Positions 9,967 through 12,545 of a DNA stretch of 34,537 nucleotides are shown piece after piece. Under the pieces are notes generated by a model that did no database searches, had not been told where the DNA came from, and worked only from the letters and a program-made list of their open reading frames with translations. Source of the stretch: Methanobacteriota archaeon. GTDB taxonomy: Archaea; Thermoplasmatota; Thermoplasmata; RBG-16-68-12. The stretch lies in contig VBLZ01000100.1 in the NCBI GenBank assembly GCA_005878515.1, positions 1 through 34,537 on the forward strand, given 5' to 3'. A program made the position numbers and the translations under genes. Each line of letters begins with the position of its first letter. The first letter of the stretch is position 1.

Positions 9967-10353
9967 CTACGGTCGAGGCGGCGACGGGAAGCAGGCTGTG
10001 CAGTGGGGATCGATGTCCCCCAGGCTCTTGTGGTACTCGCAGAACCGGGCCGTGAGCATGAGCCCGGAGCAGAACCCGTTCACGCTCGCGATCTGGTCCG
10101 AGAGCGTCATCCCGTGGGCGATTTGGGAGGAGAGTTCGTGCACATACGGTTTGATCTCCGGGAAGAGTCGGAGCATCTCCTGGTCCACGCCGCGGCTCTG
10201 CGTGTTGTAGTGGCTCACGGCCGCTTGCGTGATCCCCATCGAATGGGCGACGTCGACCTGCTTCATCTTGTACGTATGTAGGAGTTCACGGGCCAACCGC
10301 GCGCGGATCGTGGGCAGGAGTCGAGCGACCACGAGTTCTTGGGGTTGGAGCAT
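9967..10353 (-). CDS. HTH transcriptional regulator with C-terminal Cys/His cluster
   Basis: HTH KMKQVDVAHSMGITQAAVSHYNTQSRG; C-terminal FCEYHKSLGDIDPHCTACFP. ORF extends to GTG 10401, but ATG 10353 (MLQPQELV) is preferred because the palindrome/TATA lies over the longer start. Confidence 0.8.
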   Translation of the reverse strand: MLQPQELVVARLLPTIRARLARELLHTYKMKQVDVAHSMGITQAAVSHYNTQSRGVDQEMLRLFPEIKPYVHELSSQIAHGMTLSDQIASVNGFCSGLMLTARFCEYHKSLGDIDPHCTACFPSPPRP

Positions 10354-10397
10354 CCGGCGCGCCTCGTCCCTCCGGGGACCGGACTGAATACAGTATA

Positions 10398-10416
10398 ACA
10401 CGGTATTTAACCGTGT
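10398..10416. promoter_or_regulatory. Perfect inverted repeat overlapping a TATA-like box (putative autoregulatory operator)
   Basis: ACACGGT-ATTTA-ACCGTGT, 7-bp arms and 5-nt spacer; a half-site CACGGTAA recurs at 10433-10440. Confidence 0.6.
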
Positions 10417-10502: not shown

Positions 10503-11300
10503 TCACATCACGCAGCAGCGCGGACTCTCCCAATAGTCCAACCCAAGCCGGACCAACGTCGGGTCGGTCGAGGTGATCGCATACGCGTCACCGTCCGCGG
10601 TCCGGGACATCGTAAGGACCTGCTGGCCATCGACGAGCACGAGGACGCACTCACACACGATCGAGCGGATCTCCGCGGCCTTCTCGAGGTCTTTCGTGAC
10701 GGGGATCTCGGGCACCGCGAGCCGCACGCGAATTCGCCGCCGGGCCGCACGGGCGAGATCGTCTTCGAGCTTCCGGAAAATCCCTTCATCGGCGGCGAGC
10801 ACGACGATCTCCTTTCGCGCCGATGAGATCAGGGCCTTTGCTCGAGCGACGACGTTCGGGAGGCCTTTCACGATGTACGCCACATCGGTGTCGGGAGACT
10901 TTGTCGCCGCACGGAGCGGCTCGAGGAGGGAGCCAAGGCGCGCTGTGGCCGCCCGTCGCTTCTCGTATTCGGCCTCGACGAGACGACTCAGTCGGATCTC
11001 GACCTCTTTCGCCGGCACGACCCGAAACGTCTTTGGCTTGCCGTCCTGGACCTCGACGAGCCCTTTCTCGGCCAGCTCGTCGAGGGCATAGTAGATCTTC
11101 GAATCGGCGACACCGGTCTTCAGAACCAGATCGCCCGCGGTCGCATGGCTCACCCGAACCAGTGCGCAAAACGCCTCGGCAGCGTGTCCGCTGAATCCGA
11201 GGTCCCGCAAGGTGCCGCGGATCCGTTCCGCGGAAGGCCCGAACGATTCTTGGAGGAGCGCGTTCGCCCGCGCCTTGACTTCCGACATCCGGTAGGCCAA
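10503..11300 (-). CDS. TrmB-family transcriptional regulator with Cys residues in the effector domain
   Basis: N-terminal wHTH (SHATAGDLVLKTGVADSKIYYALDELAEKGLVEVQDGKPKTFRVVPAKEV) plus PLD-like C-terminal domain; CEC and C-terminal SPRCCVM. Confidence 0.85.
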   Translation of the reverse strand: MAYRMSEVKARANALLQESFGPSAERIRGTLRDLGFSGHAAEAFCALVRVSHATAGDLVLKTGVADSKIYYALDELAEKGLVEVQDGKPKTFRVVPAKEVEIRLSRLVEAEYEKRRAATARLGSLLEPLRAATKSPDTDVAYIVKGLPNVVARAKALISSARKEIVVLAADEGIFRKLEDDLARAARRRIRVRLAVPEIPVTKDLEKAAEIRSIVCECVLVLVDGQQVLTMSRTADGDAYAITSTDPTLVRLGLDYWESPRCCVM

Positions 11301-11311
11301 GGGAGGGAAGG

Positions 11312-11319
11312 TATTTAAT
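11312..11319 (+). promoter_or_regulatory. TATA-like box for the ArsM-like gene
   Basis: tatttaat about 35 nt upstream of ATG 11350. Confidence 0.5.
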
Positions 11320-11324
11320 GTTAG

Positions 11325-11344
11325 CTACTACTGATTGGTAGTAG
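11325..11344. promoter_or_regulatory. Inverted repeat operator candidate between TrmB and ArsM
   Basis: CTACTAC-TGATTG-GTAGTAG, perfect 7-bp arms, between box A and the arsM start codon. Confidence 0.6.
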
Positions 11345-11349
11345 AGACC

Positions 11350-12078
11350 ATGGAAGCAACCGCGGAGGAAGTCCGTGCGAAAGTGCGGGAACGGTATTCG
11401 ATCGCAGCGAGCAGGCGGGGTGGTTGCGAGGACGACGGCTGTTGCGCGATCGGCTATTCGCCGGTGGAGCTCGAAGGGATTCCTGCCGAATCCGTCCTCG
11501 GATTGGGCAGTGGAAATCCGGTCCGGCATGCGGAGCTGCGCCCCGGCGAGACCGTCGTCGACCTCGGGAGCGGCGCCGGAATCGACGTGTTCCTCGCGAG
11601 CCGCCTCGTCGGCCCGGCGGGGCACGCGACCGGGATCGACATGACGCCAACCATGGTCACACGCGCCACGACCGCATCGGTGGCTCACGATATCCGGAAC
11701 GCATCGTTTGTCCTCGCGCCGATCGAGAAACTGCCGCTTCCGGATGGGCATGCGGACGTGGTCCTGAGCAATTGCGTCATCAACCTGAGCCCCGACAAAC
11801 CGGCCGTGTTCGCCGAGGCCTTCCGAATCCTGAAGCCGGGCGGACGACTCGTGATCTCGGACGTGGTCCAAGAACGGGACCTGGGCCGGATCGAAGACGA
11901 CTGCGGCTGTGTCGGAAACGCGATGGTCCGTGGCGAGTATTTGGAGACGATCCGGCGTGCTGGATTTGCGGAACTCCGAATTGTGGAAGACCGGCCCTGG
12001 CGGACGGGCCCGAGCGGAATCGAGGCGTCCGCCGTCACCCTCATCGCGCGAAAGCCGGGACGGGAGGTGAAGATGTGA
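11350..12078 (+). CDS. arsM: Arsenite methyltransferase (ArsM-like)
   Basis: [120 protein letters not shown]. Confidence 0.88.
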
Positions 12079-12188
12079 TACCCATCGAGATCATGCTGGC
12101 GAAGGCGCTCGCGGAGGAACTCCGCGCAGAAGGCTGCTGCGGGAGCGGGCCGTGTTGCGCGGACTCCCGTTGTGGCTGCTGCGCCTGA
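12075..12188 (+). CDS. 37-aa Cys-rich peptide translationally coupled to the ArsM-like gene
   Basis: GTG 12075 overlaps the arsM TGA (GTGA). Translation (V/M)[36 protein letters not shown], 7 Cys in the last 18 aa. Present only as the tail of ORF 11424..12188 in the track. Confidence 0.6.
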
Positions 12189-12267: not shown

Positions 12268-12510
12268 TCAGCCGTGAGCGACAACCGAAGGGACCGAGTG
12301 CAGACTCCGGTAGATCGCGGTGAGTTCCGCCTTCTCCGCATCCCCCAGCCGAGAGTCCTGGATGTACTCCTCGTAGAGTGGGGTGACATCCTCGTCCCCA
12401 AGGCACGTGACGGACATATGGAGGATGTATTCCGTTAGAATATGCAGCGAATCGGAGGTGGGGGCTCGAGTCAACGCGTCGTCTTTGATCTTCCGCCACT
12501 GGAATCGCAT
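12268..12510 (-). CDS. Small hypothetical protein (80 aa)
   Basis: ATG 12510: MRFQWRKIKDDALTRAPTSDSLHILTEYILHMSVTCLGDEDVTPLYEEYIQDSRLGDAEKAELTAIYRSLHSVPSVVAHG; protein-like composition. Confidence 0.6.
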   Translation of the reverse strand: MRFQWRKIKDDALTRAPTSDSLHILTEYILHMSVTCLGDEDVTPLYEEYIQDSRLGDAEKAELTAIYRSLHSVPSVVAHG

Positions 12511-12533
12511 GGGTGGGCCTGCCGAAGAGCGTA

Positions 12534-12545
12534 CCACCGCGGTGG
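12534..12545. promoter_or_regulatory. Perfect palindrome CCACCGCGGTGG in a divergent intergenic region
   Basis: 12-bp perfect palindrome inside gtaCCACCGCGGTGGgtac, between the 80-aa ORF (-) and the RNase HI-like gene (+). Confidence 0.45.

Follow-up and report, generated by a model that had tools for sequence, protein, structure and literature searches.

A Cys-rich micropeptide of 37 aa is encoded immediately behind an arsM-like gene on a contig of a soil archaeon and, judged from its sequence, is the product of a real gene that is translationally coupled to arsM. We consider it probable that the product is a cytosolic metallothionein-like thiol peptide that serves as a buffer for As(III) or methyl-As(III), or for some similar soft metal, is coupled to ArsM, and is regulated through a palindrome by a TrmB-family protein. 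The stretch of DNA analyzed here (34,537 nt, hereafter the window) corresponds to contig C206 in an assembly of 1.84 Mb and 75% completeness, and the close relatives of its genome include the Euryarchaeota MAGs EA_11, EA_12 and EA_17. These relatives and the presence of DNA polymerase D assign it to the archaea, where its class is probably Thermoplasmata.

A Cys-rich ORF overlaps the 3′ end of an arsM-like gene

The window gene at 11350..12078 (+) encodes a 242 aa protein predicted to be an S-adenosylmethionine-dependent As(III) methyltransferase. Since its score against NCBIfam PRK11873 (238 bits) is below the cut-off of 263, we refer to it as ArsM-like. The best PDB matches, both by sequence and by fold, are the ArsM structures 5evj (5.5e-27 by sequence), 4fr0 and 6cx6. 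All 15 relatives compared share C26, C142 and C187, and the latter two align with the Cys of the SNCVxNL segment and that of the (G/E)CxxGA segment, which we take to be the equivalents of the As-binding C174 and C224 in ArsM numbering. The sequence-only reading had named this enzyme ArsM-like; sequence, fold and the three conserved Cys agree, and methyltransferase activity on As(III) is predicted. The enzyme thus shares its fold and three Cys with CrArsM (5evj) and CmArsM (4fr0) of the PRK11873 group, but it differs from the ArsM/AS3MT group in its score below the PRK11873 cut-off, in a C-terminal end devoid of Cys and in the separate peptide gene behind it.

The 3′ end of arsM reads GTG AAG ATG TGA, and the stop codon (12076-12078) is overlapped by a GTG codon (12075-12077) to form a GTGA junction. 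As the sequence-only reading had pointed out, this GTG opens an un-called Cys-rich ORF of 37 aa that ends with TGA (12075..12188, +), and we confirmed it in the sequence. A perfect Shine-Dalgarno sequence, GGAGGTGA (12063..12070, +), is located 4 nt 5′ of the GTG. The leader segment comprises residues 1-19 (12075..12131, +) and is followed by the Cys cluster CC-x4-CC-x4-C-x-CC (12135..12185, +), so that seven Cys fall within 16 residues; aromatic residues are lacking. AlphaFold2 predicted a helix at residues 4-18 with a pLDDT of about 75-80, while the whole-peptide model, made with four sequences, is of low confidence (pLDDT 68) and leaves the Cys tail flexible and mostly unstructured.

The openness of this frame is no evidence by itself, because it is already open from 11424, as a 254 aa ORF in GC-rich DNA. 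We therefore rely on composition and conservation. In dinucleotide shuffles of the window, an ORF that spans 25-60 aa and equals or exceeds the mini-ORF in Cys number arose with P = 0.00025, and the same test in five relatives gave P from <0.00005 (0/20,000) to 0.02. The mini-ORF is the sole ORF of 25-60 aa with at least seven Cys in the window, where the two matches fit two start codons of one ORF. Translation from the internal ATG at 12093 was ruled out, as this codon is ACG in the G010 locus (L010), whereas GTG or TTG and the ribosome-binding site are kept. We also disfavour the idea that the ORF encodes a leader peptide regulating a gene farther downstream, since the next window ORF with apparent conservation in relatives (12268-12537, minus) is convergent.

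The coupled ORF is conserved behind arsM in one archaeal family

The frame and the Cys richness singled out by the sequence-only reading recur at the arsM loci of relatives: six of the seven testable genomes of the archaeal family have, 3′ of the orthologous arsM, a coupled Cys-rich ORF that encodes 35-37 aa, 4-8 of which are Cys. In addition to the window, these are G014, G010 (VIPTETTLAKALADDLREQGCCGGATCCCGDCCTCGG), G009 (VITLSLAQALGEEREQHGCRCESACCADCCRSECKRR), G003 (VISTALVDALVREKAREARGCGPCDPGCRLECRPR) and G001 (LILIAMAEALVREKARARCCGGPCCEEWCRLECRDC, with a TTG start), the five loci of the relatives being L009-L012 and L014. The coupled ORF is absent behind the orthologous arsM of G002, and G016 was excluded from the count as its contig terminates within arsM. 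All six loci have the ribosome-binding site 4 nt before the start, one of them as the variant GGAGGCGA, and frame, start, Cys richness and stop are likewise retained down to about 62% ArsM identity. At L011, the micropeptide starts 4 nt past the arsM stop and in a different relative frame. Cys residues make up about 19-30% of most peptide members; the L012 peptide has four Cys only (11%), and the L014 peptide contains one Trp.

Between the window and G014, the dN/dS of the coupled ORF is 0.17 (one-sided Fisher P 0.012). The value against G010 is 0.39 (P 0.017), with the leader segment below the Cys part, and nucleotide identity to the same genome falls from 0.71 within the ORF to 0.35 over the first 74 nt of the 3′ flank. 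The Ka/Ks ratios of homologues, which had been proposed as a check on this ORF, are thus not neutral, and on these comparisons the coupled ORF is under purifying selection.

Outside the six arsM loci, a profile built from the six coupled peptides returned only weak partial matches in the order and in 399 genomes of the class, and this absence elsewhere is the informative part of the search. The genomes are mostly available as fragmented assemblies, and a single order accounts for all of the loci. No convincing Cys-rich ORF was found behind arsM at 75 bacterial loci or in the other families of the order. A Cys run downstream of L029 has no in-frame start codon and looks like chance.

A TrmB-family regulator and a palindrome accompany arsM

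A gene divergent from arsM (10503..11288, -) encodes a 261 aa TrmB-family regulator (Pfam TrmB 1.8e-13; Regulator_TrmB 5.9e-13), in which the winged helix PF01978 and the C-terminal domain PF11495 both score above cut-offs. The protein carries a CxC motif and a C-terminal SPRCC; C213, C259 and C260 are invariant in 20 of 20 sequences and C215 is present in 18. Between the two genes lie a TATA-like TATTTAA (11312..11318, +), the putative arsM promoter element that is also found in orthologous promoters, and downstream of it the operator-like palindrome CTACTAC-N6-GTAGTAG (11325..11344, no strand), which occurs once in the window genome.

A TrmB-family regulator is divergent at 10/10 arsM loci examined, and at all ten the TATA-like box and the arsM ATG are separated by the palindrome or by a near match to it (CTACTATATTCCGGTAGTAG at L029). 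The strict palindrome was found in nine genomes of the order, once each and at the regulator promoter; the reversed control matched one genome. When one position per half was relaxed (CTACTNC-N6-GNAGTAG), 17 genomes contained a single match each, 16 of which are at the regulator-facing promoter, and the reversed control matched six genomes. The match in G035 is unexplained; we found no such regulator in this genome, and the lone palindrome (L190, G035:C24:2490-2509) is probably there by chance. G006 and G031 harbor diverged variants that escape the relaxed pattern.

The TrmB group is best known for sugar sensing. Our observations suggest that the regulator described here is a candidate sensor of As(III) or another soft metal. 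We found no metal-sensing TrmB in the open-access literature searched.

Several related genes were noted besides. G030 has a second regulator copy on contig C73 (L191) with an imperfect palindrome, CTACTACCGTGAAGTGGTAG, and with neither arsM nor a Cys peptide adjoining. Distant TrmB-like regulators with a CC C-terminus are located beside arsM-like genes in class-level relatives (L180, L181 and L182); the palindrome is absent from these three loci and no Cys micropeptide was found there. In the window, a 144 aa ORF at 9967-10401 (-) has an HTH-like N-terminus and several Cys but no Pfam match, and a similar ORF is found near the arsM of G016 (L016).

The same putative promoter precedes stand-alone Cys-rich ORFs in relatives

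A search with the regulator retrieved orthologues in eight further genomes in which arsM does not adjoin. At each of these loci, an ATG just past the palindrome or its variant opens a stand-alone peptide of 33-40 aa with 8-12 Cys: G017 (MEPSRPSDAPQERAAEEPKARGCCSGGCCCACCGCCG), G012 (MEPSHASDVSQERASPEPKARGCCGAGCCGPGACCACCG), G007 (MEPSRPSDKPPERGPQDSKARGCCGGACCCACCGCCG), G011 (MDLSRGSDVSQERASPEPKARGCCGAGCCGAGGCCACCG), G006 (MDPSQASDRPREQTPPTSADRGACNACCASSCCACCCCG), G020 (MNGEPKTAQATSCCCCGPCCAGCGCCTGCVGPRDVRQPCC), G022, which belongs to another family (MSPKEPTDEGRNADACCGPGCCGGAPCCSACCC), and G015 (MEPSRPSDAPQERAAAQEPKTRGCCGGGCCCACCGCCG). Several of the genus-level loci share the flanks of the window, with a GDP-mannose dehydratase-like gene on one side and an RNase-H-like gene on the other. 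The dN/dS of the stand-alone ORF is 0.19 between L168 and L170 (P = 0.0008) and 0.36 between L169 and L171 (P = 0.1). A class-wide search with a profile of the stand-alone peptides returned seven of the loci from which it was built and nothing else.

The profiles of the coupled and the stand-alone peptides do not detect each other, and the leaders differ; what the two forms have in common is position, promoter and Cys richness. One promoter is thus found in three states, namely with arsM and peptide (six genomes), with peptide alone (eight) and with arsM alone (three: G002, G030 and G031). The regulator tree is poorly resolved on the number of arsM gains or losses. Because eight genomes retain a stand-alone peptide at the regulator promoter, we regard the regulator and the Cys-rich micropeptide as the conserved unit, to which arsM is optional.

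Many bacterial ArsMs carry Cys tails in the same chain

We compared these loci with 75 bacterial ArsMs with complete ends (L045-L121), a pattern-retrieved set rather than a census. In this set, the last 35 residues of 47 proteins contain two or more Cys, with a CC pair among them, and in many the Cys tail starts straight after the ..KP end of the fold, near which the archaeal enzyme terminates without Cys. The Mariprofundus (..KPGGCCSGASC) and Streptomyces (..CCGVTACC..CGCQ) enzymes, like the window unit, place a CC-type cluster right after the ArsM fold. In the bacterial proteins, however, the cluster belongs to the same chain, whereas in the window it is on a separate coupled chain. The ArsM-fused selenoproteins of NCBIfam (NF041536, NF041537 and NF047649) likewise combine an ArsM-like enzyme with an extra soft-ligand module, but as one chain with selenocysteine instead of a separate Cys peptide. 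The parallel between fused bacterial tail and separate archaeal peptide suggests a common chemical need. We found no explanation of the Cys-rich tails of bacterial ArsMs in the literature searched. A different Cys-rich neighbour was seen at the Mariprofundus locus L055, where a predicted exported peptide with repeated NPCNPC is encoded about 68 nt behind arsM.

The fused tails, together with the exact translational coupling and the predicted helix in the leader of the arsM-form peptide, would fit a dedicated ArsM partner, that is, a detached counterpart of the bacterial tail whose helix docks on the enzyme and which either delivers As(III) to the Cys of the active site or recycles the enzyme as a dithiol reductant. 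We consider such a partner rather unlikely, because the Cys-rich peptide is kept at the promoter without arsM in eight genomes, three arsM loci have no peptide, and homology to the fused tails cannot be demonstrated. The sequence-only reading had offered a metallothionein-like chaperone or buffer handing substrate to ArsM. A thiol buffer stands as the best function class for the peptide, but the same eight peptide-alone and three arsM-alone loci make an obligatory chaperone unlikely and are better accounted for by an autonomous metal(loid)-binding peptide.

The Cys pattern fits a proposed thiol buffer

The peptide has the traits of metallothioneins in being small and Cys-rich, with CC and CxC motifs and few or no aromatic residues. 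No Pfam or NCBIfam model matches the window peptide at E up to 1, metallothionein models included, and no convincing PDB match was found. We infer the identity of the metal from arsM alone.

A zinc-finger-type micro-protein, whose Cys would sit on structural zinc and which would serve as a regulator or an interaction module, appears improbable. Micro-proteins with C(P)XCG motifs are common in Haloferax volcanii (PMC6562870) and resemble the window peptide in being archaeal, Cys-containing and under 70 aa. However, paired C(P)XCG motifs are absent from our aligned peptides, which have CC and CxC clusters instead, and the Cys spacing drifts among relatives, with up to 12 Cys in 40 aa. Since the positions of the Cys drift while their number stays high, the family would fit a metallothionein-like buffer better than a defined finger.

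It is very improbable that no separate gene exists and that the ORF is either open by chance, given the GC-rich DNA, or fused to arsM by -1 frameshifting. The window frame is indeed open far upstream, but the ribosome-binding site, start and stop are conserved, the ORF shows purifying selection, and in the stand-alone versions the promoter is followed by an ATG that belongs to the peptide itself. A frameshift fusion with ArsM is ruled out by the relative frame at L011, where the start is 4 nt past the arsM stop, and by the conserved ribosome-binding site and start.

A RiPP precursor, in which the helix would be the leader and the Cys part the core, the modified-peptide option of the sequence-only reading, is scarcely credible: a leader-like N-terminus does precede a Cys-rich segment, but among the neighbours examined (part of the window genes are annotated) we found neither a cyclase or radical-SAM enzyme nor a protease or exporter, the Cys positions drift, and the stand-alone forms carry unrelated leaders.

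Discussion

For the metallothionein-like buffer, we propose the following mechanism. A single transcript would be translated into ArsM and then, by termination-reinitiation at GTGA, into the peptide; the coupling is visible in the sequence, and translation is presumed. The peptide, predicted to consist of a short helix and a flexible Cys-rich tail, would buffer As(III), methyl-As(III) or a similar soft metal. The regulator would bind CTACTAC-N6-GTAGTAG near the transcription start and repress its single target until a thiophilic metal(loid) occupies the thiols of its CxC and CC and releases it. Methyl-As(III) is more toxic than As(III), and beside ArsM the peptide could hold both. In relatives without arsM, the promoter would make the Cys-rich micropeptide only, sequestration being the core job and methylation an added option. 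Buffering is the likelier core function because the peptide persists without arsM.

The unit is similar to known pairs of a metal-sensing repressor and a small Cys-rich peptide, smtB-smtA of Synechococcus and AzuR-NmtA of Anabaena, in which the repressor acts on an inverted repeat near the transcription start; in the window unit, repressor action is presumed. The smtB-smtA genes form a divergon of repressor and metallothionein (PMC8790569), and in the window the regulator and the Cys-rich gene likewise diverge, the promoter of the latter carrying an inverted repeat. In contrast to smtB-smtA, the regulator belongs to the TrmB family and not to ArsR/SmtB, the repeat has a 7-6-7 instead of a 12-2-12 architecture, no metallothionein model matches the peptide, and arsM can join the unit. 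The likeness is a parallel layout and not homology, as the protein families and the operator are unrelated.

A more far-reaching reading is that a TrmB protein has turned into a thiol-based sensor of As(III) and methyl-As(III) with a single chromosomal target, a metallothionein family whose genes are so short that routine gene calling passes them over, in some lineages coupled so that the peptide loads or protects ArsM, and that this unit is previously undescribed. We put this forward tentatively, as a possibility that we rather doubt. In the open-access literature searched, we found neither an ArsM-linked Cys peptide nor a comparable archaeal metallothionein.

Standard annotation readily overlooks genes of 35-40 aa, and this locus provides a testable archaeal case that comes with regulator, operator and peptide. 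Its relatives offer a natural contrast at one promoter, which is followed by peptide and arsM, by peptide alone or by arsM alone. If the TrmB-type regulator senses thiophilic metal(loid)s, it would add an extra family to the known arsenic sensors. The locus also raises the question of why Cys-rich tails go with ArsM, fused to the enzyme in many bacteria and separate in this archaeon.
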